DNA of 64,000 bases, from contig NZ_SPMY01000053.1 of NCBI RefSeq assembly GCF_012939955.1, forward strand, positions 1 to 64,000. The letters are read 5' to 3'. Each line of letters starts with the position of its first letter. Position 1 is the stretch's first letter. The notes below the pieces were generated by a model. That model saw only the letters and a program-made list of their open reading frames with translations. It was not told the origin of the DNA and ran no database searches. Below, piece by piece: positions 11,378-57,485 of this stretch. A program made the translations under genes and the position numbers. Origin of the DNA: Candidatus Accumulibacter phosphatis (GTDB lineage Bacteria; Pseudomonadota; Gammaproteobacteria; Burkholderiales; Rhodocyclaceae).

Positions 11378-11381
11378 CCGC

Positions 11382-12338: not shown

Positions 12339-12347
12339 CGGGTTACC

Positions 12348-13661
12348 CTATCCGTAGATGTTGTTGAGCAGCTCGCGTGCGTCGAGTTCTGCGAGCAGTT
12401 GTGCCGACTCCGTTTCCAGCGACAGTTCCGGGAGAAGGGATTCGACCGCGTCTGGCAGATCGTCTCGCAGTTGCGCGCCGACACCGAAGACGAAGACCGG
12501 GGTGCGATAGAGTTGCTGCAGTTTCTGCAGACCATCGACCAGCCGCGCATCGGGGGCTTCTCCGGCCCAGTTGGTTGCTGGAACGAAGACCACCACATGC
12601 CACTTGTCATTGCGAACACGCTGGTCGATCTGTTCATTCGTGAGATGCGCCAGGCCGCGCGCGTAAACCTTGCGGATTTCTCCCTGGATCGCGTCCTGGC
12701 TGCTCACGTCCGATATGGGGATTACCCGGATCTGGGCTGTCCCAGGCCAGGCGCGTTCGAGATAGCGATCGAGCGTGAAATGCCGCGTGCCGAGTTCGGG
12801 CTGGCTGAGCTCCAGGCACTGGCCGTTGAGCGCCAGGCATTTTCCGTGCGATCGGGCGGCCGGAATCTGACCCGCCTCGCCGGCACCCACCCACAGCGCG
12901 CGGACGAACTTCAACAGCTCTTCCGCACGTTCTCGGCTCGGGTGTGGCAGCGTGTCGTTGAGCACCTCCTGGAAGCGTTCGAGGGACTTCTGGCCGTCGT
13001 TCAGCAGGTGGCGCGCCAGCGCCCTGGCGTAGGCGCCGCGCGTCGATGGCCGTGGCGTGTCAGGGAAGAGTTTCTGCCACAGCCGCTCCAGATTGCTCAA
13101 CTTCACCTGCTCGACAAGGACGCTCTCGACGGCTTCCAGAAGCCGTTCGAAGGGTGTCGTGACGGTCCCCCGCAGCAGCTCGGGATGATCGCCCATCTTC
13201 AGCCTGATGCCGCCGAGAATCTGCTCTGCGGTGCTGACCTGGGCAACGCACTGCGTGCGGGTGATGCGCAGCGTGCCCAGGAAGTCCTTTTCGAGATCTT
13301 CCGGCGTGGCCTGCTGGTCGAGCAGGACAGGGAAGAGCTTGAACTCGGGTTCGAGTTCGGCGCGCCAACTAAGAATCGCCGCTTCCTTCCTGACCCAGTT
13401 CGACTCCTTGATCGCTCGTCGGGAGAAGAGGATGATCGCCGCGTGACACTCGGCCAGCCATTCGTTGAGCCGCCGCTCCCAGTCGTCGCCGGGATGCAGA
13501 CCCTCGTAGTCGACCAGAATCTCGATCTTGTCGGAGTACTCGGCCTTCAGCGCCTTGCAGGTGTCCTGCAGCAGTTGCCAGTTGGCCTGCGCCTCGGCGT
13601 CATCCGCACTGGCGGGGCGCAGTCGGGAACTGTGGCTGATGAAAAGTTTGAGAGCCGCCAT
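12348..13661 (-). CDS. TIR-domain effector protein
   Basis: Counting from the ATG at 13661, residues 1-130 form a TIR domain. It has LKLFISHSS, EILVDYEGLHPGDDW and IILFSRRAIKESNWVRKEA, where E93 in the SNWVRKE motif is the likely catalytic glutamate for NAD+ cleavage. The remaining 300 residues are helical and unassigned; they may contact the MoxR/vWA partners. The frame is open to 13742, but the extension is not domain-like and 13661 starts exactly before the first beta strand. It is the first gene of the minus-strand operon. NADase activity is inferred from the family. Confidence 0.82.
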   Translation of the reverse strand: MAALKLFISHSSRLRPASADDAEAQANWQLLQDTCKALKAEYSDKIEILVDYEGLHPGDDWERRLNEWLAECHAAIILFSRRAIKESNWVRKEAAILSWRAELEPEFKLFPVLLDQQATPEDLEKDFLGTLRITRTQCVAQVSTAEQILGGIRLKMGDHPELLRGTVTTPFERLLEAVESVLVEQVKLSNLERLWQKLFPDTPRPSTRGAYARALARHLLNDGQKSLERFQEVLNDTLPHPSRERAEELLKFVRALWVGAGEAGQIPAARSHGKCLALNGQCLELSQPELGTRHFTLDRYLERAWPGTAQIRVIPISDVSSQDAIQGEIRKVYARGLAHLTNEQIDQRVRNDKWHVVVFVPATNWAGEAPDARLVDGLQKLQQLYRTPVFVFGVGAQLRDDLPDAVESLLPELSLETESAQLLAELDARELLNNIYG

Positions 13662-42373: not shown

Positions 42374-43504
42374 TCAAAGCTCGATGCGATACGGCGCATT
42401 GGCGACCGGGTTGTACTCGGCACGATAGCTCAGTTCAGCCTGCCGAGCCGGCGCAGCCCAGCCGAGCGTCGTCTTGCTGGCATAGTTGAAGCACAGCGTC
42501 GGTGCTTGCTGCAGCGAGCGGGCGATGATGCGCTGCATCGCTTCGGCATCGGGGTGTCGGAAGCGACTGCCATTGGTGCTGACCAGAAAGCGCGGACTGT
42601 CGATCAGCGCCAGCAACTCGTCGCTGACGTTGCCGGCGCTGCCATGGTGAGCGACTTTCACCGCGTCGACCCTGAGGATGGGCTGGCCGCGTTGTTGCAG
42701 CAGGCGTTTTAGCGAGGCGGTGATCACCTCGTGGTAGGCGTCGGCCAGGAAAAGGCAGGACTTGCCGGCGAATTCGGCCAGGAAGGCGATCGAACTGCCG
42801 TTGGCGGCCGATTTGTCGACTTTCAGCTGGCGTTCGAGCAGGCTGTCGAGTTCGGGTGTGGTGCCGAGCAGGCCTTGCCCGGGCAGGTAGGCCTTGAGCT
42901 GCGCCAGGCGTTGCCAGGCGGCGTCGAGATCGCCGGGGGTGACGCTCGGGCCAAGGTCCTTTTCCCAGGCCTTGCGCATCTGCGCCAGCGTCGCCGGTGT
43001 CGGCGACAGCAGGGTCAGCTTCAAGCCGCCGGCCAGCGTGCGTTCGGGCAGCGGGCCGTCGTCAGGGACCACCACTGCCTGCCCGGAAAACGCCCCGTTC
43101 CATTGCTCGTCTTCAAAACGGCGAACGATCAGGGCGCTGAGGAACTCGCCCTGCTTGCCGCCCAGGACGCGTCCGCCGCTGCTCAGATGGTTCCAGCCGT
43201 TGAACCACAGGTCGATGACCCGGATCGGCAGCGGCTGATTGGCGAGCAGGCGCACGATGCCTTCGACATGATCGGTATCAACGTGGCTCATGACCACCAG
43301 CTCGAAACGCCGGTCGCCGGCCGGCAGTGCGTCCAGGCGTGCCTCGAGATGCTTGTAGGTGGCAATCGGGCCTCCGTCGATGAGCAGCCGGCGCGTGCGT
43401 GAGCTGTCGCCGTACTCGACGAACAGGCAGTCGCCGTGCAGTGCCGGCAGCATTTCGATGCGAAAAAAGCGGCTGTCCTTACCCAGGTCGCTCGGCGTGC
43501 TCAT
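42374..43504 (-). CDS. Metallo-beta-lactamase-fold hydrolase (ComEC/Rec2-type)
   Basis: From ATG 43504 (MSTPSD, GGAG site seven bases upstream) the 376-aa protein has the MBL metal motif HVDTDH at residues 74-79. A metal aspartate in CLFLADAYHE and the VAHHGSAGN motif follow near the end. ComEC-like stand-alone MBL proteins of this kind occur in many conflict loci as nucleases or hydrolases; the substrate here is unknown. It points away from the CHAT gene upstream, separated by the repeat at 43518. An ATG one codon upstream is equally in frame. Confidence 0.85.
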   Translation of the reverse strand: MSTPSDLGKDSRFFRIEMLPALHGDCLFVEYGDSSRTRRLLIDGGPIATYKHLEARLDALPAGDRRFELVVMSHVDTDHVEGIVRLLANQPLPIRVIDLWFNGWNHLSSGGRVLGGKQGEFLSALIVRRFEDEQWNGAFSGQAVVVPDDGPLPERTLAGGLKLTLLSPTPATLAQMRKAWEKDLGPSVTPGDLDAAWQRLAQLKAYLPGQGLLGTTPELDSLLERQLKVDKSAANGSSIAFLAEFAGKSCLFLADAYHEVITASLKRLLQQRGQPILRVDAVKVAHHGSAGNVSDELLALIDSPRFLVSTNGSRFRHPDAEAMQRIIARSLQQAPTLCFNYASKTTLGWAAPARQAELSYRAEYNPVANAPYRIEL

Positions 43505-43517
43505 CATTGATCTCCAG

Positions 43518-43688
43518 TTAATGTGAAAGTCGCGTATGCGACTCACGAACCTCCCTTCTCCCCTCGCGGGAGAAAGGCCAGGGGTGAGGCGGGGAATTCA
43601 GGGAGCATGCTCCCTGCCCGGCGAACGATTCCGGCGTGCAAGCCGGAATGCGCACTGCAAGTGAGAGGGGGAACGGTCATGACCGTCA
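43518..43688 (+). repeat. Dispersed palindromic repeat, direct copy with extra hairpins
   Basis: The left part (ttaatgtgaaagtcgcg through cgcgggagaa) and the right end (aacggtcatgaccgtca) match 57509-57632 in the same orientation. A middle block differs and holds two more palindromes: cagggagcatgctccctg at 43599-43616 and attccggc/gccggaat at 43628-43649. The right end overlaps the stop codon of the CHAT gene. Confidence 0.8.
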
Positions 43689-44030
43689 GAGCCGCCAGTC
43701 GGCGTCACCGAAGGCGACGACGCACAAGGCCATTGGCAGGCTGTCGAGCAGCGCTTGCCGTTTCGCTGCGCGCAGCGCTTCGCCGAGGCAAGGCACGGCG
43801 TCCGGCTGGCGTGCTGTGCCGGACTGCTCGTCGGCGGTCGATTGCCGGTGGATGGCGAGCAGCACTTCGAGCAGCTTTTCGCCGACCCTGACCGCATGCG
43901 GGCCGAAGACCGTGGCGATGGTCGAGACGATCACTGCTGCGCCTGCCTGGCGGAAATAGCGGATGTGGTTGGCGTACTGCTGCGCGCTGCTGGCGGTGTC
44001 GCAGCCGAGCAGCAGCAGCAAGGGGTAGCG
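43686..44030 (-). CDS. C-terminal part of the CHAT protein (3' piece of a split gene)
   Basis: This frame continues the protein at 43931-46741 after the broken G-run. It reads RYPLLLLLGCDTASSAQQY, then IVSTIATVFGPHAV and ends VVAFGDADWRL. That is the end of a CHAT protease domain with the catalytic cysteine in LGCDT. As given it has no own start directly at the junction; the frame opens at 44177 in unrelated sequence. Confidence 0.8.
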   Translation of the reverse strand, partial: RYPLLLLLGCDTASSAQQYANHIRYFRQAGAAVIVSTIATVFGPHAVRVGEKLLEVLLAIHRQSTADEQSGTARQPDAVPCLGEALRAAKRQALLDSLPMALCVVAFGDADWRL

Positions 44031-46741
44031 CCCTCGACATGCACGTATTCGCGCGGCAGGCGCAAGGTCTTGAAGGCGATACCACCAATCTCCAGCGCGA
44101 TGTCCTGGCGTTCGCCGGCATTGTGCGGGAAGGCGACGAGCAGGCTCGGGTGGCTGCCGCTGATCGCCTGTTTCCATTCATCCCAGTTGCCGGCGACCTG
44201 CACCGCTTGCGGCAACTGCTGGCGCAAGGCAGCGAGCAGCGGCGCCACCTCGCCGGCCTTGACCTCCTGGCTGTAAGCGACCAGCGCGCCCTGGTCGAGT
44301 TGCAGGCGAACGCGTGTGCCCACCGGTTCGGCCTGGACGATCACCTCGGCCTGGTTGGGGACGTCGATCGCGGGGTTGTAAACGTGCCTTTCGATGACTT
44401 TGCGCAGACCCCAGAAACCCATCGGGCAGACGTGTCGGCGCGGCTCTTTCTGGCCGGCGCAGGCTTGCGGACAAGCGCCGTCGGCAAGTGCCTGCAGGGC
44501 GTTCGGACAGAAGTCGACTCCGGCATCGTCGTCGGGCGGCGGGTACTGGTAGATGAACTCGAAGGGAACGACGGCGTCGGCGCGGGTGCTGACGAGCTGA
44601 ATGTGCGTGGCCTCGTCGACGTCCATGCCTTCGCTTTGCAGCGGCTGCAGGTTGTCGATCACCAGGCTCGAGTAGAGGTCGGCGCCGAGACGCGCCAGTT
44701 TGATGAACAGCTTGCGGTTGTCGCCGCTGGTCAGCCCGTCGCTGTAGTCGGCGACGCTGTGCGCGACCTCGGAGAGGAGCTGGTTGATGCTGGCGATCGG
44801 CTCGTCGATACCGCTCAGGTCCTTGGCCCAGGCGCGCTTGCCGGCAATGCCGGTGAGTAGCGGCCGCTGCTGATTGCTGTGGTTGAGGATGAAAGAGGCG
44901 TCGAAACGCCGCCGCGAGCCGAGTTCGCCCCAGTTTTCACGCACGCGCGCTTCAAGCTGCTGGCTGATCACTTCGCCGGCGCTGCTGGCGTCAAGGGCTT
45001 CATCAGCGGCGGCCACGCGGCTGTGGATGAGCACTGTCTGCAGCACGCGGCCGCGGTGCAGAACACTGACCCGGCCTTCGAAAGCGGCCACGATGCGCGG
45101 CGTAAAGACGAACTCGGCGACGCTGCTCGGCCCGACGCGCGGCAAGAGCAGTTGTCCGAGCAGCGGCGCGTCGAGTTGCGTCGGCTCGTGAAAGACCACC
45201 TGCAGTCGATGCGGCCGCTGACTGCGCGGAAGTTCGTGTGCCGGAAAGGCTGCCGGGGCGGAGTGCCATTGTTCGTCCGGCGGGCCGATGCGCAGGCGCA
45301 GCATGATCGGTACGCCGACCTGCAGGCGCCGCCGTTCTTCGACCAGTTGCTCCGTGTGCTTGCGCCAGAAGCTGTGCTGGATGAAGCGCTGCTCGCCTTG
45401 CTCGACGGCTGCCGCTGCCCCACTGGCGCGCATCTCGTCGGCGATTTCGGCCAGCGCAGCCGCTTCGTCGGACTCGTGATCATAGCCGTAGCGGGCGCTG
45501 GACTCGTCAATGCCTTGGGCCAGCAGATGCGGCGAGACGCTGCGCGCAGACGGCAGCGCATGTCCCGCGCGTCCGGAGTGCTGGCCGCGGTCAGCGCCTT
45601 CAACCCCGCCCGCGGTGCCGCGCGTGCCGCGCGTCAGCGTTGCGGCGACGCGATCGGGATCGCCGACGAGGCGCCACAACGAGTGTTCGCTGACCGCCAG
45701 TTCGGCATCCGCGGGGAGGGCTCGCAGGCGCGCGGTCAGCGTGCCGAGAGAATGCGACAGGGTACTGATGCGCAGCAGGTCGTCACCGAGGACGGCCGTG
45801 ATGCCCTGGCCGAAAGCCTCTGCCAGGGCGATGTCCAGCGCTGTGTTGTGGCTCAGGGCGTCGGCAAAGTGTTGCAGTGCTGGCAAGGCCGGGCCGCTGC
45901 TGGCGTCGGCGAGCGCGCCGGCGGTAGCGAAAGGCGCGACGCAGACCACTCCCTCGGCCGCCAGCTCGCCGGCGACAATGCGGAGCAGGGCCTTGCTGTC
46001 GTCGCTAGCGTCCAGCCCACCAAGGATCAGCACCAGCGCCGCCCGGCTCGGCGAACGCCGGCTCAGCAAGCGGGCTGCGGTTTGTCGCAGTGAGCCACTG
46101 AAGACGAGCACTTCAAGACGTGGCGTGGCGCGGCCGGCGACGCCGAAGCGATAGGGCCAGGGTTGCGGTCGTGGTACAGGCGTGTTGGCCAATGTGCTGG
46201 CGAGGCGATCGTCAGGCAGCACTGCGATCTGGAAAGGCAGCTGCCAATCGATGCGTCCGTCAGCAGCGAAAGCGTCGGCGACGAAGACGCTCGCGGCGCC
46301 GACCGCAGGGTGCTGCAGCGTTTGCAGCATCGGCAGCAGGGTGTTCCAGCTCTGCGCGTGGCTGCGTACGGCGAGACGCGGCCCGGTGGACGCTTCGTTA
46401 CGTAATGCCAACCATACGGCGGGGAGCTCGCGGGTCTCCAACCATGCGGCAGCGAGCACGCTGGCCGGCGGCAAGGCGTCGAGCGCGTCGGCCGTCGGCA
46501 GCTGCCAGGCGAGCAGCCCGCGGTTCGCTTCGCGGTCCTGTTCCTCGTAGGCAGCGTAGAGGAGGCGGCCGATGCCTGCCGCCACCTCGCTTGCCGAGTT
46601 TTCGGCACCGCCCGGGAGGGTCAGCAGTTCTTGCGGCGACGCTGCGCGCCAGACGCCCAGCGCGGCCAGCGCCTGTGCAAAGCCCGCGTCGTCGACGGCG
46701 AGGCTCCAGGTGGCGAGATATTGGCGATCGATCATGATCAT
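43931..46741 (-). CDS. CHAT-domain caspase-like protease (5' piece, frameshifted before the active cysteine)
   Basis: This frame gives 936 residues from ATG 46741 (GAGAGG site). The last 250 residues start a CHAT domain, with FEFIYQYPPPDDDAG, a four-cysteine segment between CPNAL and RRHVCPMGFWG, and the active-site histidine in LLVAFPHNAG. After HVEG the frame turns into a CCCC-type nonsense tail. With one more G at 44031-44033 it would continue into 43686-44030 and make about 1018 residues. Residues about 215-310 (ALVLILGGLDASDD) look like a decayed first CHAT copy lacking the cysteine. The gene lies 10 bases after the patatin gene, in one minus-strand unit. Confidence 0.78.
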   Translation of the reverse strand: MIMIDRQYLATWSLAVDDAGFAQALAALGVWRAASPQELLTLPGGAENSASEVAAGIGRLLYAAYEEQDREANRGLLAWQLPTADALDALPPASVLAAAWLETRELPAVWLALRNEASTGPRLAVRSHAQSWNTLLPMLQTLQHPAVGAASVFVADAFAADGRIDWQLPFQIAVLPDDRLASTLANTPVPRPQPWPYRFGVAGRATPRLEVLVFSGSLRQTAARLLSRRSPSRAALVLILGGLDASDDSKALLRIVAGELAAEGVVCVAPFATAGALADASSGPALPALQHFADALSHNTALDIALAEAFGQGITAVLGDDLLRISTLSHSLGTLTARLRALPADAELAVSEHSLWRLVGDPDRVAATLTRGTRGTAGGVEGADRGQHSGRAGHALPSARSVSPHLLAQGIDESSARYGYDHESDEAAALAEIADEMRASGAAAAVEQGEQRFIQHSFWRKHTEQLVEERRRLQVGVPIMLRLRIGPPDEQWHSAPAAFPAHELPRSQRPHRLQVVFHEPTQLDAPLLGQLLLPRVGPSSVAEFVFTPRIVAAFEGRVSVLHRGRVLQTVLIHSRVAAADEALDASSAGEVISQQLEARVRENWGELGSRRRFDASFILNHSNQQRPLLTGIAGKRAWAKDLSGIDEPIASINQLLSEVAHSVADYSDGLTSGDNRKLFIKLARLGADLYSSLVIDNLQPLQSEGMDVDEATHIQLVSTRADAVVPFEFIYQYPPPDDDAGVDFCPNALQALADGACPQACAGQKEPRRHVCPMGFWGLRKVIERHVYNPAIDVPNQAEVIVQAEPVGTRVRLQLDQGALVAYSQEVKAGEVAPLLAALRQQLPQAVQVAGNWDEWKQAISGSHPSLLVAFPHNAGERQDIALEIGGIAFKTLRLPREYVHVEGATPCCCCSAATPPAARSSTPTTSAISARQAQQ

Positions 46742-46751
46742 GGTCGGCCTC

Positions 46752-47867
46752 TCAGTGCAGCGGCCACGCCCCGACCGGCCAGCCCTGCGGCGCGTCGAGC
46801 GCTAGCTCCGTGCGCGTGCGCAGTGCGGTGTCGGTGAGGGCGTAGCCCCAGTTGATCAATTGCCCCTGCTCCTTCGCCGTGAACGCCTTGAGCCGGGTCG
46901 GGATATTCTGCAGCGCGGCGGTGACGGCGTTGTCGCTGGCCAGCGCATCATGATCGTCGTAGGCGTCGATCGCACTGCCGATTCCCCAGTAAGCTCCGCG
47001 CCGAACCCCGCTCTCAAAATCGCCAATCAGCGAGCGCCTGCGCAGCGCCCGTGTCTGTTCGATCAGGATGTCGCGCACCCGGCCGAGCTGCAACAGATCG
47101 TCCTCGAAGGGCGACTCGTCGATCTCGAAGGGTGCTCCGGCGTCGCTGACGAGAACGAAATCAAGCTTGTCGAGCAGTGCTTCGACTCCCATGTTGTCGG
47201 AGATGCGGCCGTCGGCAAGCACGATGCGTTGGCGCAACTGGTTGAGATTGGCCAGCTTGCCCTGTGGCTCCTCCCAGGCGCCGGTTTCCGTCTTCAGCAC
47301 CACCGGCGAGAAGATCGGCGGGACAGCGCTGGATGCGGCGATGGCCGCGGCGAGAGGCACTTCAGTCTTGTACGAAATACCCAGGACGCAGTCCGCGATG
47401 TAGTCCTGACGAAAAAGGAAGCTGCGCCCGGTCTGCATGTTCGTGGCGTAGAAGATGAAGCGTGGCGCGTGGTTTTCGGCGGGAGTTGCGATCTGACGCA
47501 GCAGCGTTTCGCCGAACAGGTCTTTGGCGTAGCGCCTGGCCAGAATCTCGCCGGACGACCGGAACGGCGTCAGGTGGCCGCGGAGGGCGGTGCTGACGTC
47601 GATGGTCTGATTGCAGAACTCGCGTACCGGTTGCGCGACCACTTCTTCGAAGTTGCTGGCCTGATCGTCGACGAAGTTGAGTTGCCGCCAGCGGTGAGCC
47701 AGCACGCCGGCCACAATCGAGCCGCCGGAAACGCTGCTGATCCGCGTCAGGCGGCGCAGCAGCCCGCCCTCGTTGAGCCGCCAGAGAGTGCCCAGGCCGA
47801 AAAGCGTCGCCCGGAATCCGCCGCCGGACAAGGACAGGCCGATAGTCGGCTGTTGGTCAGTGTTCAT
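46752..47867 (-). CDS. Patatin-like phospholipase
   Basis: The 371-aa protein has the patatin oxyanion motif SGGGFRA at residues 14-20, the nucleophile S47 in SSVSGGS and the catalytic aspartate D219 in LADGR. It should hydrolyse phospholipids or acylglycerols and may attack membranes, as patatin effectors of several defence systems do. There is no signal peptide or membrane helix. A strong AGGAGG site precedes the ATG. It is the first gene of the minus-strand unit and is divergent from the caspase gene. Confidence 0.9.
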   Translation of the reverse strand: MNTDQQPTIGLSLSGGGFRATLFGLGTLWRLNEGGLLRRLTRISSVSGGSIVAGVLAHRWRQLNFVDDQASNFEEVVAQPVREFCNQTIDVSTALRGHLTPFRSSGEILARRYAKDLFGETLLRQIATPAENHAPRFIFYATNMQTGRSFLFRQDYIADCVLGISYKTEVPLAAAIAASSAVPPIFSPVVLKTETGAWEEPQGKLANLNQLRQRIVLADGRISDNMGVEALLDKLDFVLVSDAGAPFEIDESPFEDDLLQLGRVRDILIEQTRALRRRSLIGDFESGVRRGAYWGIGSAIDAYDDHDALASDNAVTAALQNIPTRLKAFTAKEQGQLINWGYALTDTALRTRTELALDAPQGWPVGAWPLH

Positions 47868-48201
47868 CGGAGTCCTCCTGCAGATTGTGGCAAGCCCCGG
47901 TCGATGGGCTTCCGGGCAGCGTTTGCCGACCTGATTCAGTGCTGCCCGGCAGCGTGCTGCTACCCACTGAAGGATAGGAAATCTCGTGGCATGTGGGGAG
48001 AGTATCCTTATTCACGGCAAGTGTGGTCAAACCTGCGTGGGTGCGAGTTTACGCAGCACCGGTAATGGCCATCGACGCCAGGCAAGCCGACCGAGCAACG
48101 GCGAGGTTTGTTATTGCCTGTGCGCTTGCTAGACTGAGGACCGTAGTTTGCAGTCCGCAGTCCACGAGCAACCATCACCGATCAATCGACAGGAGGCAGT
48201 T
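47868..48201. other. Divergent promoter region between patatin and caspase genes
   Basis: These 334 bases lie between the outward-facing patatin and caspase genes and must contain both promoters. The composition is less GC-rich than the genes. I see no gene and no clear operator; the strong aggagg at 48191 is the ribosome site of the caspase gene. Confidence 0.5.
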
Positions 48202-49044
48202 ATGAGCAAGCGCGCACTTTGTATGGGGATCAACAACTACCCCGGTACGCACATGGATCTCAGTGGTTGTGTCAACGACGCCAACGATTGGGCTGCCGAG
48301 CTCGCCGGGCGTGGCTTTGCGGTCAGCAAGCTGATCGACAGCCAGGCCACCAAGGCGGCGATGTTCAACGCCATCCAGTCGCTGATTACCGGCGGGGTCA
48401 GTGGCGATGTGCTGGTGATTACCTATTCCGGACACGGGACCTATGTGCCCGACACCAACGGCGACGAGATTGACGGCCTCGACGAGGCGCTTTGCCCCTA
48501 CGACATTCAGACCGGTGGGGGAGCGCTGATCGATGACGAGATCAACACCCTGTTTTCGGCGCGCAAGGCCGGTGTGCGCTTGCTGTTGATCTCCGACAGT
48601 TGCCACTCGGGTACCGTGACCCGTGCCGCGGCTGCCGACCCGGACGCCGACGATTCGCTGCGTCCTCGTTTTATGCCGATGGGCAACTGGCTGGCGGCCA
48701 ACAAGTTGCCGCACGGCATCAGCGGCCAGCCGCTGACGGCGGTGCCGGTGACCGCGGGAGGCTCGCCGTTTGCCGGCGCGCTGTCGCGAATGATGGGCGA
48801 TCTGCTGCTGGCGGGCTGCAAGGAGGGGCCGAACAATTTCAGCTACGACGCGCGCATCGCGGGCCGCCCCTGTGGCGCCTTCACCTATTACGCGCTGAAG
48901 GCGCTCAAACAGTTGCCGGCCAACGCTACTTACGCGCAGTGGCATGCGGCGATCAACCCGACCTACCTGCCGTCGGCATCGTATCCGCAAAGCCCGCAGA
49001 TTTTTGGCAGCGAGGATGCGCGCAAGCGCCAGATTTTCACTTGA
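48202..49044 (+). CDS. Caspase-like protease (metacaspase/orthocaspase, peptidase C14)
   Basis: The 280-aa protein is a complete p20-type domain. The catalytic dyad is H78 in ITYSGHGTYV and C134 in LISDSCHSGT, and acidic residues DEIDGLDEALCPYD follow the histidine, as in metacaspases. The family cleaves after arginine or lysine and acts in bacterial death or conflict modules. It has no prodomain or signal peptide. ATG 48202 has a consensus AGGAGG site; the longer frame from 48148 is rejected. It starts the plus-strand unit leading to the LCAT-CHAT giant gene. Confidence 0.93.
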   Translation: MSKRALCMGINNYPGTHMDLSGCVNDANDWAAELAGRGFAVSKLIDSQATKAAMFNAIQSLITGGVSGDVLVITYSGHGTYVPDTNGDEIDGLDEALCPYDIQTGGGALIDDEINTLFSARKAGVRLLLISDSCHSGTVTRAAAADPDADDSLRPRFMPMGNWLAANKLPHGISGQPLTAVPVTAGGSPFAGALSRMMGDLLLAGCKEGPNNFSYDARIAGRPCGAFTYYALKALKQLPANATYAQWHAAINPTYLPSASYPQSPQIFGSEDARKRQIFT

Positions 49045-49136
49045 TGGCGGTTCTGTAGCCTGTCCAGATGTCCTGGCGTGACAGGCCGACCTGAGCCGAC
49101 CCAGGGCGCTCCGGGACCTGGCGTGGCAAGAACTCG

Positions 49137-52100
49137 ATGGAGGCGATGATGGCTGATACCACTACTCTCAACTTCACTGGGCGGCAAAGCGACGAGAAGC
49201 AGTTGCCGGCACTGCTGCAGAACGTTCGACGGTCGGCGGGTGAGCCGGAGGATCCTTTCCTGCCGGCCGGCTACCTGAAGACGCGGGCGAGTTTTGAAGT
49301 CGGTGCTGCGCTGCGCGCTGCCGGGGCCAGCGTCAGTGCCCAGCAGTATGCGGCGCAGGGCGATGAGGTGCTGGTCATCGAACTCGCCGACGGCGGTGTT
49401 CTCATCACCTCGGCCGGCAAGCTCAAGGCTTCGCTGGAGCGCAGCCGACCCGAGCTGATCGGCAGCGACGGGGAGATTCTGTTCGATCAGCTGAGCGGCG
49501 ACGGGGCTGCGACGCGCGGGCTGCTCGGGGACGCGGTCGGCGGCCTGATCAGCAAGGTCTTTGCGCTGGCGGTAGGGACTGCCAGCGACGAAATCATCGA
49601 GGCGGCGAAGAAGAAGCTTGGCGAGCTGGGCAAGGGTGGCGGTGACGGTGACGGCGCCGAGCTGGGGGTCAGCGGGCTGGGTACCAGGGCGCTGATGTGG
49701 GCGATCGAGGCGCGGCTGGGTCGGCCGACCGGTGTTTACTGCTGGGACGGCGGACGCAGTGCCACTGAGGCGCAAGACAGCAAGGCGCTGGCGCGCGCGC
49801 AGCGCGAGCTGCAGCGCGCCGCTGCCGAGAAGCTGCCGGTGCTGGTTTTCGTGCATGGGACTGGTTCCAATACCGTGGGCAGTTTTGGCGACCTGCCGCT
49901 CGACGAGCGCGATCTGTGGAGCGTCCTGCAGCGCCATTTCAGCGGCGGTATCTACGCCTACGAGCACCGCACGCTCTCCGAGAGCCCGATCGAGAACGCC
50001 CTGGAGCTGCTGGCGGTGTTGCCTGACGGCCTGCAGCTCAACCTGGTCTCGCACTCGCGCGGCGGCCTGGTTGCCGACCTGCTCTGCCTGCAGGATTTCG
50101 ATCCGCTGATCGAGCTCTACAAAGCCGATCTGCCGGGCACTGGTGACGCCTACGAGAGCGAGGCTGCCGCGCAAGACGTGCGTCGCGACGTCGACTCGGC
50201 GCACGCCGGGCAGCGCGAGCAACTGCGCCAGCTGGCCAGGGTGCTGGCGGACAGGAAGCTGGTCGTGCAGCGCTACGTGCGGGTGGCCAGTCCGGCGCAG
50301 GGAACGCGGCTGGCCAGTGGCAACCTGGACCTCTTCCTGTCCGGGATGCTGACCCTGATCGGGCAGGTGCCGTTCTTTTTCGGCAACCCCTTCTATTCGG
50401 CTTTCAAACGGGTGGTGCTGGAAATCGCCCACAAGCGCACCAACGCGCATCTGGTTCCCGGCATCGAAGCGATGTTGCCGGATTCACCAATGGCGCGCCT
50501 CTTGCGCGACGCACCGGTGCGCGCCGGGATCGAGATGGCGGTGATCGCTGGCGACATCGAAGGCGGCAACCTGCTCAAACGTCTCGGTGTCCTGCTCACC
50601 GACTATCTGCTTTTCGACAACGTCGACAACGACCTGGTGGTCGATAGCGACTCGATGTTTGCCGGCATTGCGCCGCAGGCGCGGGCACGGGCGCTGTTCG
50701 ATCGCGGTGCCGAGGTCTCGCATTTCCGCTACTTCACCAACATCGACACGCGCCTTGCCCTGCGCGACTGGTTGGTGGCCGGCGAGGTCCTGCCGCTGAC
50801 GGCTTTCCAGGCCTTGCCGGGTCCCTTCTCGGATGGCGAGGCAAGCGCGGTGGAGGAGGGCTCGGGCGCAGGCCGCAGGCGTGCTGCGCGTGCTGAGCGT
50901 GCCATATCGCGCTCGCCGGAGACGCCTCGTGCCGATTTGCCGGTGCTTGTCGTGCTGCCCGGGGTGATGGGTTCGCACCTGTCGGTGAATGGTCAGGACC
51001 GGGTGTGGTTCGACCCGCTGGATATCGCCAGCGGTGGCCTGAGCAAAATTGCCTGGGAGCAGTCGGGCGTCGAGGCCGAGAAGCTGTTCGAGATGTTCTA
51101 CGGCGATATCTGCACGTATCTGTCGGCCAGTCACCGCGTCGAGCCCTTCGCCTACGACTGGCGGCAACCGCTGGATGTGCTCGCCGAGCGCTTTGCCGAA
51201 TTCCTCGATCGCTTGCTGCGCGAGACCACGCAGCCGGTGCGCCTGCTCGCGCACAGCATGGGCGGACTGGTGGTGCGCGCCAGCATTCACAAGCGCCGTG
51301 CAGTGCTCGACGCGCTGATGGCGCGCGACGGTGCGCGCCTGGTGATGCTCGGGACGCCCAATCAGGGCGCCTACTCGATGGTCGAGAACCTGCTCGGCAA
51401 GGGTGATACGCTGCGCTCGCTGGTGCGTCTCGACGTTCGCCACGATATGCGGGAAGTGCTGCAGATCGTCTCCGGTTTTCGCGGTGCGCTGCAGTTGCTG
51501 CCCAAGCGCGGCTTCGTCGATACCTTCCAGGGGCAGCCCGACGGTGGCGACGACAAGCAGGATTTCTGGCTGGCCAAGACCTGGGTCAACTACCAGGAGA
51601 AAGTCTTCGATTTCTGGTTCGGAAACGGCAATTCGGCGACACCGAGCCAGCCACAGCTCGACGCGGCGAACTGGCTTTGGCAACAGGACGGCGAGGCAAG
51701 GCCGGCGCTCCCCGAGGCCTATGCAAGCAAAGCCGTCTATGTCTTTGGGGTGGCGCGCAATACCCCGTGCGGAATACGCGAGGTGAAAGGGCGCCTGAAA
51801 ATGGTCGGCACCAGCCAGGGCGACGGCACTGTCACCTGGGCTTCCGGGCGCATCGGCAATGTCGCCAGTCACTACTATCTGCCCGCCAAGCATGGCGATC
51901 TGCCGTCGACCAGCGCGTACTTTCCGGCGCTTGGCGAACTGCTGAGCAGCGGCGTCACCAGCGCCCTGCTGAGCAGCCCGCCGGCGGTGCGCGGCGAAGA
52001 GCAGCCGCTACCGCTGACCTACGATGCCGGGCCGCCGACGCTCGACGGCGGCGAGGCCGTGGCACGCGGTCTGCTCGGCGGTTCGCCGCGCAGTCGTGTC

Positions 52101-54644
52101 GCGGCGCGGCCGAAGCGCCGCCTGGAGGTCAAGGTCAAGGCCATGGACCTGCGTTTCCTGGCCCAACCCGTTCTGCTCGGTCACTACGAGCAGGATCCGA
52201 TTGCTGGCGCCGAGGCGCTGATCGACAGCGAACTACTCGATGGTGACCTCACCCAGCGCTACAACCTCGGCCTTTACGCCGGCCCGCGCGGCACGGCGAG
52301 CGTCGTCCTGCGCGTTCCCAACGAGCAGGAGCGCCGCCGCGGCAGCCTCACTGGGGCGATTGTTACCGGTCTTGGCGCCTACGACGGCAACCTCAGTGTC
52401 GGCGATCTGATCGAGGCGGTGCGCGCCGGTGTCCTGCGCTACCTGCTGCAGGTCATCGACGTCCTGGGCAAGGACGAACGCGAACTGCCGCTGGCGGCGC
52501 TGTTGCTCGGTTACAACTCTTCGGCGAACCTCTCGGTCGCGGCGTCTGTCGAGGCGTTGTTGCGTGGCGTCATGGAAGCCAACGCACGTTTCTACGAGAC
52601 GACACGACTCGATATTCGCGTGGCTCGCCTTGACATCGTCGAGCTCTATCAGGATACGGCGATTACCGCCGTCTACGCGCTGCGGCGAATGCCCGACCGG
52701 CTCGCCGAACTGACCCGGCGCTATGACGTGGCGCTGGTCTGTTGGCCGGAGCTCGAACAGGGCGAAGGCCTGCGTCGGCGCCTGTTCGACAGCGGCAATC
52801 CGAGTTACTGGCCACGGCTGATCGTCACCGACGCCGATCGCCACGAGCAGGGCCTGGCCGTTCGCCTGCCGGCGTGCGACGGCGCCAAGGCCGGCGACAC
52901 TGGCCAAGGGGGCGCCTCGCAAGGTGCGCCGCGACAGCGCACGGCGATCGCCGAACGGCTACGCTTTCTCTACGTCGGCCAGCGTGCGCGCGCCGAGTCG
53001 GTGGTCCTCCAGCGGCAACCGGGCCTGGTCGAAAAACTCGTGCGCCAGCAGATCCAGAGGCCGGTGTGGCGCGAGGACTTCGGTCGCGTGCTCTTCCAGT
53101 TGATGGTGCCGCACGACTTCAAGGATGCCGCACGACAGCTCGAAAGCATCGTCCTGGTGGTCGACGACTACACTGCCAACCTGCCGTGGGAATTGATGTT
53201 TGCCGATGATCAGCGGGGTGCGGGGGAAAAGCTGCCACTGGCCTTGCGTACCCCGGTGGTACGGCAGCTTGCGGCCATGCAGTTCCGTCGCCAGGTGCGG
53301 CAGGGGCTGGAGCGCACGGCCTTTGTCGTTGGCAATCCATCCGTTGACGGTTTTGTTGCGGCTTTTCCGGATCGGCGGCAGCCAGATGCCCTCGACCCGC
53401 CACCGCTGCCGGGCGCAGAGGAGGAAGCTACGCAGGTGGCTGCCATCCTGCAGGGCCTTGCCTACCAGGTAGTCGCCGAGATCGGCAGCGACCGCAACGC
53501 ATCTGACGTGCTGACACGCCTCTACCAGCAGCCCTATCGGCTGCTGCATATCTCGGCGCACGGTATTTTCGACCAGCAGCACGTCGATGGCTGCCGCCGT
53601 TCGGGCGTCGTTCTTTCCGATGGTCTGTTGATTACTGCCGCCGAGATCCGCGCCATGGAAAGCGTGCCCGAACTCGTTTTCCTGAGCTGCTGCCACCTTG
53701 GCAAGGTCGATACGGGCAGCGCCAAGGGAGCAAACGACAACAGCGGCGAGCGCACGCTGCAAGACGGCAACCTGTTGGCGGCCAGCGTCGCGCGCGAGTT
53801 GATCAATATCGGTGTGCGTTGCGTGGTCGTTGCCGGCTGGGCAGTGGACGACAAGGGTGCGATGATCTTCGGCAAAGCTTTCTACGAGAGCCTGCTGCTC
53901 GAAGGCCGCCCCTTCGGGCAGGCGGTTTTCGAAGCCAGGCGGGCGGTGTGGCAGGCCAATCGCGAAGACATCACCTGGGGCGCCTACCAGGCCTATGGCG
54001 AACCGGGTTGGCTGGCCGAGCCGCGCCTGTCGGGCAAAGCCGCTGCCGCGGTCGCCTATGTCTCGCCCGACGAATTGCTCGACGAACTGTCCAGTCGCCG
54101 TGCGGCGCTGGCGCGTGCCAGTGAGCGGCAGACCCGGCGCGAGCTTGACGCGCAGGTGAGCAGCATCGAGGCTTTGCTCAGGGAGCGTTGTCCGGCAGGC
54201 TGGTTACGCCTACCGGTCCTGCAGTCGGCGCTGGCGAGCGTGTGGGCGGACCTCGGTGAATTCGCCAAGGCGCGGGCGGCTTACCTCGACGCGATCCAGT
54301 CCGAAGATGGTGACGGACGGGTGCCGATACGCGACATCGAGCAGTTGGCCAATATCGAGGCGCGCATGGGCGAGCAGGATGAAGGTGACGAAGGTGACGA
54401 TAAGGACGGCAGCGCACTGAACTTGATCGAGAGCGCGCTCGAACGTCTGCGCGCTCTCGACGCTCTGGTCTCGCATGCGGCGGGTGAGGCGGCTAGCGGT
54501 CAGGTCAACAGCGAACGTTGCGCACTGCGCGGCAGTGCTGCCAAGCGCAAGGCCAATGTTTTTGCAGGCCGGGCGCTCGCCGCCGACGCCGCGACGGGAA
54601 GCGTGAGCGAAGCGGGCAGCAAAGGGGGGGCAGCTGGGAAGTGA
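49137..54644 (+). CDS. Giant protein: two alpha/beta-hydrolase domains plus CHAT protease
   Basis: The 1835-aa frame has three catalytic modules. A first alpha/beta hydrolase (about 215-545) has FVHGTGSN (H240-G241) and SHSRGG with S307. A second, LCAT/lipase-like (about 600-1000), has VLPGVMGSHL and AHSMGG with S707. A CHAT domain (about 1340-1640) has HISAHG with H1475 and LSCCHLG with C1519. TPR-like helices follow. The frame ends just after seven G (54624-54630); with six G it continues to 55320, adding about 225 residues. It could cleave lipids or esters and proteins, with CHAT as activator or effector. It follows the caspase gene by 92 bases in the same direction. Confidence 0.88.
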   Translation: MEAMMADTTTLNFTGRQSDEKQLPALLQNVRRSAGEPEDPFLPAGYLKTRASFEVGAALRAAGASVSAQQYAAQGDEVLVIELADGGVLITSAGKLKASLERSRPELIGSDGEILFDQLSGDGAATRGLLGDAVGGLISKVFALAVGTASDEIIEAAKKKLGELGKGGGDGDGAELGVSGLGTRALMWAIEARLGRPTGVYCWDGGRSATEAQDSKALARAQRELQRAAAEKLPVLVFVHGTGSNTVGSFGDLPLDERDLWSVLQRHFSGGIYAYEHRTLSESPIENALELLAVLPDGLQLNLVSHSRGGLVADLLCLQDFDPLIELYKADLPGTGDAYESEAAAQDVRRDVDSAHAGQREQLRQLARVLADRKLVVQRYVRVASPAQGTRLASGNLDLFLSGMLTLIGQVPFFFGNPFYSAFKRVVLEIAHKRTNAHLVPGIEAMLPDSPMARLLRDAPVRAGIEMAVIAGDIEGGNLLKRLGVLLTDYLLFDNVDNDLVVDSDSMFAGIAPQARARALFDRGAEVSHFRYFTNIDTRLALRDWLVAGEVLPLTAFQALPGPFSDGEASAVEEGSGAGRRRAARAERAISRSPETPRADLPVLVVLPGVMGSHLSVNGQDRVWFDPLDIASGGLSKIAWEQSGVEAEKLFEMFYGDICTYLSASHRVEPFAYDWRQPLDVLAERFAEFLDRLLRETTQPVRLLAHSMGGLVVRASIHKRRAVLDALMARDGARLVMLGTPNQGAYSMVENLLGKGDTLRSLVRLDVRHDMREVLQIVSGFRGALQLLPKRGFVDTFQGQPDGGDDKQDFWLAKTWVNYQEKVFDFWFGNGNSATPSQPQLDAANWLWQQDGEARPALPEAYASKAVYVFGVARNTPCGIREVKGRLKMVGTSQGDGTVTWASGRIGNVASHYYLPAKHGDLPSTSAYFPALGELLSSGVTSALLSSPPAVRGEEQPLPLTYDAGPPTLDGGEAVARGLLGGSPRSRVAARPKRRLEVKVKAMDLRFLAQPVLLGHYEQDPIAGAEALIDSELLDGDLTQRYNLGLYAGPRGTASVVLRVPNEQERRRGSLTGAIVTGLGAYDGNLSVGDLIEAVRAGVLRYLLQVIDVLGKDERELPLAALLLGYNSSANLSVAASVEALLRGVMEANARFYETTRLDIRVARLDIVELYQDTAITAVYALRRMPDRLAELTRRYDVALVCWPELEQGEGLRRRLFDSGNPSYWPRLIVTDADRHEQGLAVRLPACDGAKAGDTGQGGASQGAPRQRTAIAERLRFLYVGQRARAESVVLQRQPGLVEKLVRQQIQRPVWREDFGRVLFQLMVPHDFKDAARQLESIVLVVDDYTANLPWELMFADDQRGAGEKLPLALRTPVVRQLAAMQFRRQVRQGLERTAFVVGNPSVDGFVAAFPDRRQPDALDPPPLPGAEEEATQVAAILQGLAYQVVAEIGSDRNASDVLTRLYQQPYRLLHISAHGIFDQQHVDGCRRSGVVLSDGLLITAAEIRAMESVPELVFLSCCHLGKVDTGSAKGANDNSGERTLQDGNLLAASVARELINIGVRCVVVAGWAVDDKGAMIFGKAFYESLLLEGRPFGQAVFEARRAVWQANREDITWGAYQAYGEPGWLAEPRLSGKAAAAVAYVSPDELLDELSSRRAALARASERQTRRELDAQVSSIEALLRERCPAGWLRLPVLQSALASVWADLGEFAKARAAYLDAIQSEDGDGRVPIRDIEQLANIEARMGEQDEGDEGDDKDGSALNLIESALERLRALDALVSHAAGEAASGQVNSERCALRGSAAKRKANVFAGRALAADAATGSVSEAGSKGGAAGK

Positions 54645-54660
54645 GGGCGCGCTGGCGCAG

Positions 54661-55320
54661 ATGGACCAGGCTTTGCGCGACAGCGCTGGTTTTTACCGGC
54701 AAGGCGAGGGACGGCCGGGCGATGCGGCTTTCCGATCCTACAACGCGCTCAACCGGCTGGCGATCGAGGCTTTGTTGGTGCCGGCAGATGGCGAGCGGCA
54801 AGGGGAGGGGGAGGGCAACGCGGCCAACACCGACATCGAGGCCATTGCCCTGGCGCGTTACTGCCGTTCCGCGGCCCGCGACGCTTACGCCCGCAGTGCC
54901 GATTTCTGGGACGCGATGCGCGAGCCTGAGGCGCTGCTCGTCGAGCACCTGCTCGATGCTCGGCTCATGCAGTCCGGAGCTGTCGGCCAACTGGCGTTCG
55001 ACGAAGTGACGCGTGCTTACCAGGAGACGCTGTCCTCTCTTTGCCTCAAGCCGAAGCAACTCGACTCGGTGCTTGCGCAGATTTGCCTGTTGTCGCGATT
55101 CTGTGACGCTCGCTCCCTCGCTCACGATCATGGTCACGGGGGCGGCTGGCAGTTGGCGGCCGACCGCCTGATCGCCCTTGCTGAAGGCCTCAGGCCCGGC
55201 GCATGCCAGCGCGGCGATCGCCCGCATGGTGCGACGCCGGTTGCGGCGGCGTTGGCGAAAGCGCTGCCGTCGAAGGCAGCGGCCAGTGCCGGGCGTCAAC
55301 GCGCGACGCGGAAACGCTAG
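54661..55320 (+). CDS. Helical C-terminal part of the giant CHAT protein (split by a G-run)
   Basis: The frame from ATG 54661 gives 219 residues, mostly helical with TPR-like spacing, and an RKR-rich end. The same frame read back to 54628 joins the giant protein exactly when the G7 run is read as G6 (GGQLGSEGALAQMDQ). I therefore regard it as the natural C-terminus of the 49137 protein, giving about 2060 residues. Taken alone, no domain is recognised and no ribosome site is visible. Confidence 0.7.
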   Translation: MDQALRDSAGFYRQGEGRPGDAAFRSYNALNRLAIEALLVPADGERQGEGEGNAANTDIEAIALARYCRSAARDAYARSADFWDAMREPEALLVEHLLDARLMQSGAVGQLAFDEVTRAYQETLSSLCLKPKQLDSVLAQICLLSRFCDARSLAHDHGHGGGWQLAADRLIALAEGLRPGACQRGDRPHGATPVAAALAKALPSKAAASAGRQRATRKR

Positions 55321-55401
55321 GTGCGTTTGTCGCCTCCGCCGCTTGTGGTAGGGGACGCGCACAGCCATTTTTCCATCAACCATCCTTGAGAAAGGATCGC
55401 C

Positions 55402-55518
55402 ATGATGCAGAAGTTCCGGTCTTTCCTCTCAGCCCTTGTCCTCGTCAGCTTCCTCACGGCTTGTGCCGGCGCGCTGACTGGCGTGTCGGCACAGGTCATG
55501 ACGCTTAGGCAGGCATGA
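55402..55518 (+). CDS. 38-aa predicted lipoprotein coupled to the next gene
   Basis: The ORF MMQKFRSFLSALVLVSF ends its signal with the lipobox LTAC (cysteine 21) and has only 17 residues after it. A clear aagga site lies six bases before the ATG. Its TGA overlaps the ATG of the next gene (ATGA). It would be acylated and membrane-anchored with a tiny mature part, like lysis-type or entericidin-like peptides. That functional parallel is a guess. Confidence 0.6.
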   Translation: MMQKFRSFLSALVLVSFLTACAGALTGVSAQVMTLRQA

Positions 55519-57485
55519 AGGCACACGCTTTCGTCGTCATGCCCTTCGGCAGCAAGCGCGGGCCCGATGGGCAGCTGATCGACTTCAATCGGGTCTACGC
55601 CGAGTACATCTGGCCAGCGCTGAAGGCGGCCGGGATGGCAGTTTTCAAGGCCGACGAAGAGGAGCGTCCCGGTGATATCCTGGATGACATGTTCCAGGAA
55701 CTGCTGCTCGCCGATCTGGTGGTCGCCGATCTGACGCTGGACAATCCCAATGTCTGGTATGAGCTCGGTGTCCGGCACGCGCTGCGCGCGCGTGGCGTGG
55801 TGCTGGTGCAGGGGCCACGGGCCAGCCAGCCCTTCGACACCTATACCGATCGCAAGCTGCGCTACACGCTGCGCGACGGTGCCCCTGACCCGGCCACTCT
55901 GGCGGCTGACTGTGCCGCCTTGACGGCGATGGCGCTGGCCAGCATGGCCAGCTCGACGCGGCGCAAGGTGAGCCCGGTTTTTAAGCGCATTCCCAATCTT
56001 GAACAGCCGCAGTGGCGGCAGCTGCTGCTCGAACAGCACAACGAGTTTTCCGACGCCCATGCCAGCTGGGATCGGCGAATGGAGATCGCGCGGCAGAAAA
56101 ACCGTCCCGGCGATATTCTGCTGCTCGCCGACGAGACGCCAATCCGCGCCCTGCACCGTGAAGCCAAGCATACCGCCGGCAACGCCTTGCTCAAGCTCAA
56201 GCAGTATCAGCTGGCGCTCGAGCAGTTCGATCTGGCGCTGGCCATCGACGCTGATGACAAGGCCAGCCGGGAGAAAAAGGCGGTCTGCCTGGGTCGCCTG
56301 GGCCGCTTCGAGGAGGCGCGCGAATGGGTGCGGCAACTGACCCGTGACTATCCTCGCGATGCCGAATGCTGGGCACTGCTCGGGCGCGTCGAAAAGGAGA
56401 ACTGGCTGGCGCGCTGGCGCCGGCCAGGGCTGACGCCGGCAGAGATGCACGCTGCCGCCAAGCATGAGAATGCGGCGCTTGGCGAGGCCATTGACCCCTA
56501 CTACCAGGCCTTCATCGCCGACCCGGCGCATCATTACTCGGGGATCAACGCGCTGACCTTGCAACTTCTGCGCCAGCATTGTGGCGGCGAGACCAGCCAG
56601 ACGGTGATCGACAACCTCATCGGTGGTGTCCTCTGGGCCAGCCTGACTGCCCAGGAGCGCAATCGCAAGGACTACTGGGCGCGCGCCAGCTACGCCGAAC
56701 TCTGTTTGCTGGTCAATCCGCCGGCGAGTATCGGCAAGGAGTACGCGAACATGGTGGCGGCGGCCAACGGCGACTGGTTCGCGCTCGATTCGAGTCGCCA
56801 GACGCTGCAGCTTCTGCGCGATATCGACTTCCGGCCAGCCGAGACGGCTGCGGCGCTGGCCATCGTCGAACGCGAGATCGAGCGCAGCAGTCCGCCGTTC
56901 GAGCCCCGCCAGGTGCTGCTCTTCAGCGGTCACATGATCGATTCCGCCGGCCGCCAACCGCCGCGTTTTGCTGCCGAGAAGGAGGCGCTGGCGGCAGCGA
57001 AGATCGCCGAGGCGCTCGATCAGCTCGCCGCGGGGCCAGGGGACCTGGCGCTAGCGCAGGCCGCCAGTGGCGGCGACCTGCTGTTTCTGGAAGCGTGTCA
57101 GGCGCGCGGCGTCCGCCTGCAAGCGATGCTCCCTTTCGAGGAGCCCGAGTTCATCGAGCGCTCGGTTCTGCCGGCGAGCAACGGCGAGCACTGGCGGCAG
57201 CGCTACTTCACGCTGACCAGCATGCTTGCCGAGGAGCCGCGGATCATGCCGGCGGAACTCGGTACGCCGCCAAGGGACGAGCGCGGCGAAGCGGCGAATG
57301 CTTTCGAGCGCTGTAACCTCTGGCTACTGTACACCGCCCTGGCCTGGGGGGTCGACAAGGTGCGTTTCATCTGCCTGTGGGATGGCGGTGGCGGCGACGG
57401 CCCGGGCGGAACCGCGCACATGTACCACGAAGTCAAGCGTCGCACCGGACGGGTGAGCTGGCTCGATACGCGCAAGCTGTGGTGA
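55515..57485 (+). CDS. Deoxyribosyltransferase/TIR-like - TPR-S (DUF4071-like) - SLOG-like protein
   Basis: The 656-aa protein has three parts. Residues 1-130 are a Rossmann-type domain like nucleoside deoxyribosyltransferases: FVVMPFGS, ADLVVADLT with D72, and NPNVWYELG with E83. Residues about 150-455 are helical repeats with YYQAFIADPAHHYSGINALT, resembling the TRAFs-binding/TPR-S domain (DUF4071) of ASK-type kinases. Residues about 465-656 (VLLFSGHMIDSAGRQPPRF, ASGGDLLFLEA) resemble a SLOG-family nucleotide-binding fold. The order of the first two parts is that of the N-terminus of eukaryotic ASK kinases. It probably senses or cleaves a nucleotide in the CHAT/caspase module. It begins in an ATGA overlap with the lipoprotein ORF. 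Confidence 0.82.
   Translation: MKAHAFVVMPFGSKRGPDGQLIDFNRVYAEYIWPALKAAGMAVFKADEEERPGDILDDMFQELLLADLVVADLTLDNPNVWYELGVRHALRARGVVLVQGPRASQPFDTYTDRKLRYTLRDGAPDPATLAADCAALTAMALASMASSTRRKVSPVFKRIPNLEQPQWRQLLLEQHNEFSDAHASWDRRMEIARQKNRPGDILLLADETPIRALHREAKHTAGNALLKLKQYQLALEQFDLALAIDADDKASREKKAVCLGRLGRFEEAREWVRQLTRDYPRDAECWALLGRVEKENWLARWRRPGLTPAEMHAAAKHENAALGEAIDPYYQAFIADPAHHYSGINALTLQLLRQHCGGETSQTVIDNLIGGVLWASLTAQERNRKDYWARASYAELCLLVNPPASIGKEYANMVAAANGDWFALDSSRQTLQLLRDIDFRPAETAAALAIVEREIERSSPPFEPRQVLLFSGHMIDSAGRQPPRFAAEKEALAAAKIAEALDQLAAGPGDLALAQAASGGDLLFLEACQARGVRLQAMLPFEEPEFIERSVLPASNGEHWRQRYFTLTSMLAEEPRIMPAELGTPPRDERGEAANAFERCNLWLLYTALAWGVDKVRFICLWDGGGGDGPGGTAHMYHEVKRRTGRVSWLDTRKLW

Follow-up and report, generated by a model that had tools for sequence, protein, structure and literature searches.

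A candidate CHAT-protease variant of canu beside a caspase and lipase module in Candidatus Accumulibacter phosphatis

Within a stretch of 64,000 nucleotides from Candidatus Accumulibacter phosphatis (contig NZ_SPMY01000053.1, positions 1 to 64,000, called the window below), positions 42,374 to 57,485 carry an island of genes that, on balance and with moderate confidence, we interpret as two adjacent proteolysis-triggered suicide (abortive-infection) modules, the first of which would be a variant of the canu system with a CHAT protease. The island consists of two divergent units, one on the minus strand, transcribed in the order C-B-A (module 1), and one on the plus strand, in the order D-E-(F)-lipoprotein remnant-G (module 2), as an earlier note, made from the sequence alone, had also laid them out, and the gene content read by that note, an MBL (metallo-beta-lactamase) protein, a patatin, a caspase and a giant protein with two hydrolase domains plus CHAT, is confirmed by matches to Pfam and PADLOC profiles. 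The host genome is represented by 5.04 Mb in 149 contigs, the window being contig C58, and among the matches listed in a GTDB scan the closest to E are from Candidatus Accumulibacter. The guanine-cytosine content is 0.64-0.68 within the island and 0.61-0.63 in the flanking 2-kb bins, with no sharp step. The features are as follows.

42374..43507, minus strand: A, predicted ComEC-like MBL pro-nuclease related to CanC, Avs1a and LmuA, 377 amino acids (PADLOC, Foldseek, metal-site motifs)
43163..43192, minus strand: disordered loop 1 of A, residues 106-115, the last residue being L115, followed by G116 (predicted local distance difference test score, pLDDT, below 50)
42803..42949, minus strand: disordered loop 2 of A, residues 187-235, holding L214-G215 (pLDDT below 50 nearly throughout)
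43686..46741, minus strand: B, putative CHAT (caspase-clan) protease, its frame broken near the C-terminus in the window (Foldseek of an orthologue model, His/Cys motifs)
46752..47867, minus strand: C, patatin-like phospholipase (PF01734, 5.1e-18; Ser47 and Asp219)
48202..49044, plus strand: D, caspase of 280 amino acids with the motifs SGHG and DSCHSG (PF00656, 1.1e-19)
49137..54644, plus strand: E, DUF7379 hydrolase, LCAT-like hydrolase, a middle domain without an assigned family, CHAT and the start of TPR-S (Pfam, active-site alignment)
52077..52079, plus strand: codon for Gly981 of E, part of an LLGG-like motif in the linker that joins the LCAT-like and middle domains, a candidate processing site (conservation)
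54661..55320, plus strand: F, the TPR-S tail at the C-terminus of E, here in a different frame (one frame in relatives)
55402..55514, plus strand: remnant of a glycine-zipper lipoprotein gene (36 amino acids, 56% identity to a 147-amino-acid protein of relatives)
55515..57485, plus strand: G, possibly a deoxyribosyltransferase- or TIR-like domain, then TPR-S and a C-terminal domain without an assigned family (PF20308, 1e-20)

The case for the first module starts from protein A, which the earlier note had treated as a plain MBL hydrolase, overlooking a probable gated pro-nuclease with two motif-matched loops. Among the PADLOC profiles A matches LmuA (3.2e-67), Avs1a (9.2e-50) and RTasMBL (5.6e-39), a profile search of the PDB retrieves ComEC, and the best Foldseek match of its model is the ComEC nuclease domain 9ic4 (E 1.9e-11), suggesting that A belongs to the ComEC-like defence clade of MBL nucleases and is probably a nuclease itself. 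In an alignment of 18 homologues, six of which are at least 87% identical within one group and one of which is caspase-linked, the residues of the metal-site motifs are invariant (18/18), and so are L115-G116 of the first loop and L214-G215 of the second. The pLDDT of the model falls below 50 only at residues 1-10, 106-115 and nearly all of 187-235, and the two internal loops thus delimited may cover the active site. The motifs of the two loops are matched within a protein, as exemplified by the pairs ESLG/ESLG, DLLG/DLLG, DVLG/DVLG, DRLG/DRLG, GLLG/GLLG, ETFG/EAFG, DVFG/EHFG and EAYS/EGYG. Across 21 diverse homologues of A, less than 60% identical to one another, the score of the loop-1 motif was 12.19 on loop 2 of the same protein and 8.79 (standard deviation 0.74) with shuffled partners, none of 20,000 permutations reaching as high, a count that is not a clean probability since the representatives are related to one another. 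Other loop-1 4-mers, used as a control, scored 7.22 on loop 2 (top of 2,000 draws 9.24), and the 15 rows labelled as CHAT- or caspase-linked, one of which (L217) has no identified protease, scored 14.27 versus 10.26 (standard deviation 0.94), again with 0/20,000. The set was analysed without L222, whose loops overlap, and without L129, L220 and L221, missed by the anchors, and it includes the distant rows L198, L204, L205 and L200-L202, in which the loop-1 motif is probably mis-set. The motif varies with the partner, being x-x-L-G, often with D first, in CHAT-linked nucleases and [E/D]-x-[LFYM]-[GSA] in caspase-linked ones, with exceptions. Given matched motifs in both loops, the simplest reading is that a single protease cleaves both, and the pattern looks like the one to be expected if one partner protease made two cuts in a gated pro-nuclease.

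The candidate for this protease is B, which was found in 17 of the 61 genomes searched (the present one included). A adjoins B in all 14 B loci fetched, short contigs among them, and lies directly downstream in all five plasmid records that carry a B-type CHAT protein; no gene separates the two, either in the window or in B-A loci unlinked to E. An AlphaFold2 model of an intact B orthologue is of low confidence (pLDDT 55.9, predicted template modelling score 0.34), and its Foldseek neighbours are headed by the TPR-CHAT protein of Craspase (E 6e-4, probability 0.97), followed by SAVED-CHAT, with separase also among the best PDB neighbours. All 13 B proteins aligned have the CHAT His and Cys. 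Ahead of the CHAT domain, at residues 710-737 (L157:14644-17595), C710, C726 and C737 are invariant and H735 is nearly so, and this cluster is possibly a zinc site.

The gene pair resembles canu most closely. In gated MBL nucleases, as described in the main text of Tuck et al. (2025; PMC12799240), two disordered insertions lock the enzyme until a partner protease cuts them, a mechanism demonstrated there for HamM of Hachiman, cut after I118 and I218, and for Avs1a of AVAST, with sites predicted at I134 and I234. For CanC, the same text gives activation by CanAB as shown and a conserved Gly in both insertions as the proposed sites, mutation of which ablates defence. Like CanC, A is a ComEC-like MBL nuclease by its matches, has two disordered insertions that each hold a conserved Gly, and is encoded downstream of a putative caspase-clan protease. 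Unlike in canu, this protease is not a caspase but B, of another caspase-clan family, a single putative CHAT protein stands in place of a protease with a separate CanB, a patatin gene lies upstream, and the loop motif x-x-L-G differs from the one seen in the caspase-linked homologues compared. Searched by word, the main text of PMC12799240, with figures and supplements outside the search, has no mention of CHAT, patatin or lipase, and literature searches, whose scope left out the supplement of that paper and Burroughs & Aravind 2020, found no publication on a CHAT-type canu or on a system combining LCAT, CHAT and caspase. By analogy with these homologous, tested systems, infection would be sensed and B activated, B would cleave A in both loops at the Leu-Gly motif, and the opened active site would degrade DNA, with the patatin C attacking membranes in parallel.

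Other known systems share parts of the island. AVAST type 1, Hachiman, Lamassu and the MBL pairs of DRT systems have nucleases of the same superfamily as A, and, as far as the main text of PMC12799240 covers them, their proteases are trypsin-like domains fused to another defence enzyme, that of Hachiman cutting after Ile; no protease-fused partner of this trypsin-like kind was seen beside A. An assignment of A to AVAST type 1 is rejected, the protein scoring 231 bits against the NCBIfam Avs1a equivalog model with its cut-off of 420, and Lamassu is likewise rejected, as A matches LmuA and none of the seven open reading frames of the island scanned matches LmuB; among nine other proteins of the window there is one weak LmuB match, to the Wadjet protein JetC about 38 kb away. 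Craspase and SAVED-CHAT, the best structural neighbours of B, likewise employ a CHAT protease as a signal-activated switch, and no gRAMP or SAVED match was found among the island proteins beyond a weak match of the CHAT part of E to SAVED_CHAT (0.009). G and the tail of E carry TPR-S (PF20308), as do the TPR-S or ASK-signalosome-like systems. The TPR-S domain was reportedly introduced by Burroughs and Aravind in 2020, in a work that may list part of module 2. A TIR-activated caspase-like immunity, said to come from Rousset in 2025 and to go by the name type IV Thoeris, likewise joins a nucleotide-enzyme-like domain and a caspase in one locus; here the caspase D is present by its Pfam match, and G, which has no Pfam TIR match, weakly matches a TIR effector in PADLOC.

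The patatin C is a recurrent partner of A. Its dyad, Ser47 and Asp219, is invariant in 12/12 homologues. The order C-B-A is found in the window type of locus and in two unlinked loci, those of genome G005, of another family, and genome G217. Among 398 Pseudomonadota genomes, a C-family patatin occurs in 8, A in 9 (the present genome included) and both in 4, in all of which they are adjacent, as measured with a patatin profile three of whose members were chosen because they are next to A. Of the other eight Pseudomonadota genomes with A, four have the patatin adjoining it, the one in G428 being an 85-amino-acid piece only, and a patatin also stands beside A on a Sinorhizobium plasmid. The protease partner varies: at the 15 A-bearing plasmid loci fetched, an annotated caspase was found in seven, a B-type CHAT protein in four, a serine protease in one and no identified protease in three, and true caspases stand beside related MBL nucleases at L129, L206, L208, L211, L215, L216, L218 and L219. 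One of these loci, L215 on a Bosea vestrisii plasmid, has in a row two TIR genes, a caspase protein of 838 amino acids, an A-type MBL gene and a second caspase, and would be a canu-like locus with a fused protease. Another, L218 on the Agrobacterium plasmid pAtCG920, has in a row a caspase, a hypothetical gene, an A-type MBL gene and a CHAT protein, with a TIR/caspase pair upstream.

The second module is built around E, which matches DUF7379, LCAT and CHAT in Pfam (CHAT at 3.7e-33) and LCAT/PLA2G15 in a sequence search of the PDB, and which was found in 25/28 genomes of the genus and 12/200 of the order, with the present genome counted in both. In 87 homologue rows (at least two genes being entered twice, L124 and L147 coming from genomes that A1 already covers), the active sites are conserved with hardly any exceptions, Ser307, Asp499 and His529 in the first hydrolase, Ser707, Asp896 and His919 in the second, and His1475 and Cys1518/1519 in the CHAT domain. 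In the variable linker behind the second hydrolase, Gly981, within an LLGG-like motif, is Gly in 86/87 rows, making it a candidate processing site. The neighbourhoods of E were counted in 80 loci, the best from the GTDB scan, which gave 537 stretches encoding relatives; several of the 80 end near E at contig ends, and the profiles of D and G were built in part from the loci then counted. A caspase is found near E in 44 of these loci, directly upstream in 42 (downstream in L120 and farther off in L122), and 12 loci have, no farther than 10 kb from E, a gene with both the N-terminal and the TPR-S parts of G, five from Accumulibacter, two from Nitrospira, two from cyanobacteria, and one each from Geobacter, a Deltaproteobacteria metagenome-assembled genome (MAG) and Piscinibacter; for comparison, TPR-S exceeds the cut-off in 28/200 genomes of the order, E tails included. 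Both the D-E and the E-G linkage are thus recurrent.

G scores 74.6 bits against PF20308 (cut-off 27.6). Window E alone scores 17.4 bits, below the cut-off, which is exceeded by the E tail in 9/11 other genomes of the order, and the TPR-S of G can be aligned to the E tail of relatives at a probability of 93.7. In the earlier note G was called deoxyribosyltransferase-like, TPR-S and SLOG-like; the TPR-S part stands, the C-terminus has no Pfam match, SLOG included, and the N-terminal assignment goes back to motifs seen by eye and a weak PADLOC TIR-effector match (2.9e-5), with no match to Pfam TIR. A G homologue of a Geobacter MAG (L136:3196-5166) is 73-79% identical to window G, with an E neighbour only 33-40% identical, which suggests a recent transfer of G alone. 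For module 2 we infer that G, together with the matching TPR-S tail of E, might sense or relay a nucleotide-type signal that would switch on D, the caspase, the CHAT domain of E or both, and that either or both of these might then free or activate the two lipase-type domains of E, perhaps through a cut in the LLGG-like linker.

The window holds further candidates for conflict systems, about 28-40 kb from the island. Genes for Wadjet JetB, JetC and JetD occupy positions 408-5771 (PADLOC 1e-92, 0 and 2.6e-152), JetA, if present, lying before position 408, and consecutive genes at 7917-13661 encode a TIR protein (PF13676), an AAA/MoxR-like ATPase, a 335-amino-acid protein of no assigned function and an 808-amino-acid protein with a C-terminal FGE-sulfatase domain, perhaps another nucleoside triphosphate-dependent conflict system. 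In a different contig of the same genome (G000:C27:89288-94475, L187), two more CHAT proteins, with open frames of 1,138 and 1,663 amino acids, lie close together. With the active sites of E kept in the 87 rows, the patatin dyad invariant and the Wadjet and TIR/MoxR genes in the window, the reading by the earlier note of a proteolysis-triggered membrane-damaging conflict island was a fair one, though it missed the gated nuclease.

Several observations weigh against the interpretation as two adjacent suicide modules. Linkage between them is infrequent: of 20 E regions of the genus, 11 have all of D, E and G, and nine of these lack A and B, and among the best 80 E loci A lies near E in three and B in one, these being one Accumulibacter locus, one of Chromatiales and one weak case. 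The earlier identification of B as a CHAT protease keeps its Foldseek ranking and its invariant His and Cys, but B has no match in Pfam or in a sequence search of the PDB, hhalign gives a probability of 12% when the profiles of B and of the E CHAT domain are compared, and the call goes back to a low-confidence model and motifs. The best loop match of window A in the loop test is KDLG, not the LG pair GLLG seen by eye. The patatin is not universal, being present in 1/15 of the fetched A-bearing plasmid loci, with a Tle1-like lipase in one and an alpha/beta hydrolase in one. What is proposed for the signal, for the role of G and for the purpose of Gly981 is guesswork, and B and E are both frameshifted in the window.

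This last point raises the alternative of a decaying island, dead or dying in the window copy and surviving by chance, which we regard as rather doubtful. The frame of B is interrupted immediately ahead of the CHAT Cys, whose codon is in a different frame, whereas intact relatives read through, and the earlier statement that all catalytic motifs are readable fails for B. The giant E retains the domains attributed to it, and its frame is broken too, with the TPR-S tail split off as F; F as a separate gene is rejected, this tail being continuous with E in relatives. What had been called a tiny lipoprotein is a remnant of a lipoprotein that is intact in relatives, with a glycine zipper and, in two of the intact ones, a match to PF05433. 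However, A, C, D and E keep their catalytic motifs, and close relatives have intact B frames of about 983-1,022 amino acids. Genome G208, with an E that is 97% identical, has E and F in one open frame of 2,068 amino acids, and its B, 87% identical over the part compared, is an intact frame of 1,021 codons. Assembly error is a possible source of the frame breaks, as the genome is in 149 contigs, and error and real decay are indistinguishable here.

A further alternative, which we consider unlikely, is that of one integrated system, in which G as the sensor would drive one protease cascade that takes in all the proteins. The modules stand side by side in the window and in genomes G220 (L157) and G213 (L158), the only two of the 11 D-E-G regions that also have A and B, and in G211 the contig with E ends inside B. 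Close B orthologues, 66-89% identical over the parts compared, are found in G208, G201, G220, G213 and G211; those of G208 and G201 belong to A-B-C loci on contigs other than those of E, G208 having no patatin in the 2.8 kb upstream of D, and the positions in the other three indicate that, in every case that the contigs allow to be checked, a close orthologue of B is linked to D-E. A Chromatiales genome has, in one head-to-tail run, a patatin, a caspase, a 403-amino-acid CanB-like gene, an A-type MBL gene and E, the patatin being parted from A by the caspase and the 403-amino-acid gene; this run argues both for the integrated system and for independent joining of the parts, and, together with the rarity among the best 80 E loci, it suggests that joining of the modules is recurrent but rare. 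Against integration, genome G203 (E 88% identical) keeps the patatin, D, E and G with A and B absent, and diverged B homologues (27-32% identical, one 51-52%) sit away from E, as in the single-contig genome G212, where about 2.3 Mb separate E (3.92 Mb) from a 30%-identical B (1.62 Mb). The earlier note had proposed a search for the same gene set in related genomes, with unlinked homologues set beforehand as counting against a common system, and the outcome is mixed, the loci of G220, G213, Chromatiales and the G211 fragment speaking for it and the nine D-E-G regions without A and B, along with the unlinked diverged B genes, against it. A fixed seven-gene system is rejected, as most D-E-G loci of the genus lack A and B. 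A bolder form of integration, a two-armed apoptosis machine in which D and the CHAT proteases B and E act in one cascade started by a TPR-S signal receptor, cuts at the same short motif in both gating loops unlocking the DNase and cuts at a matching linker motif unlocking the lipases of E, appears speculative and unlikely to us; if it were true, DNA and membrane would be destroyed together, as by the caspase-activated DNase and lytic death in animals.

Roles outside defence, such as developmental cell death or lipid and protein turnover in these activated-sludge bacteria, with CHAT-MBL pairs at fixed sites possibly serving as housekeeping genes, seem improbable. They would agree with the unlinked A-B pair having the same neighbours in several Accumulibacter genomes (L180-L184), which places it at one chromosomal site there. 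Mobility and company point the other way: homologues of A are found on 53 of 72,556 plasmids, 38 of the 53 typed as conjugative, A is patchily distributed (the 9 of 398 genomes above), its MBL family is otherwise a defence family in PADLOC, and the Wadjet and TIR/MoxR genes share the window.

In conclusion, the moderately favoured interpretation remains that of two adjacent suicide modules, which might cooperate. If it is true, the canu kind of defence would extend to CHAT proteases and gain a lipase among its recurrent partners, and the motif shared by the two nuclease loops would amount to a sequence rule by which the cutting site of the protease could be predicted from the nuclease alone. 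Caspase-like proteases unlocking a DNase and membrane-cutting lipases would then be a possible bacterial parallel to the cell suicide of animals.

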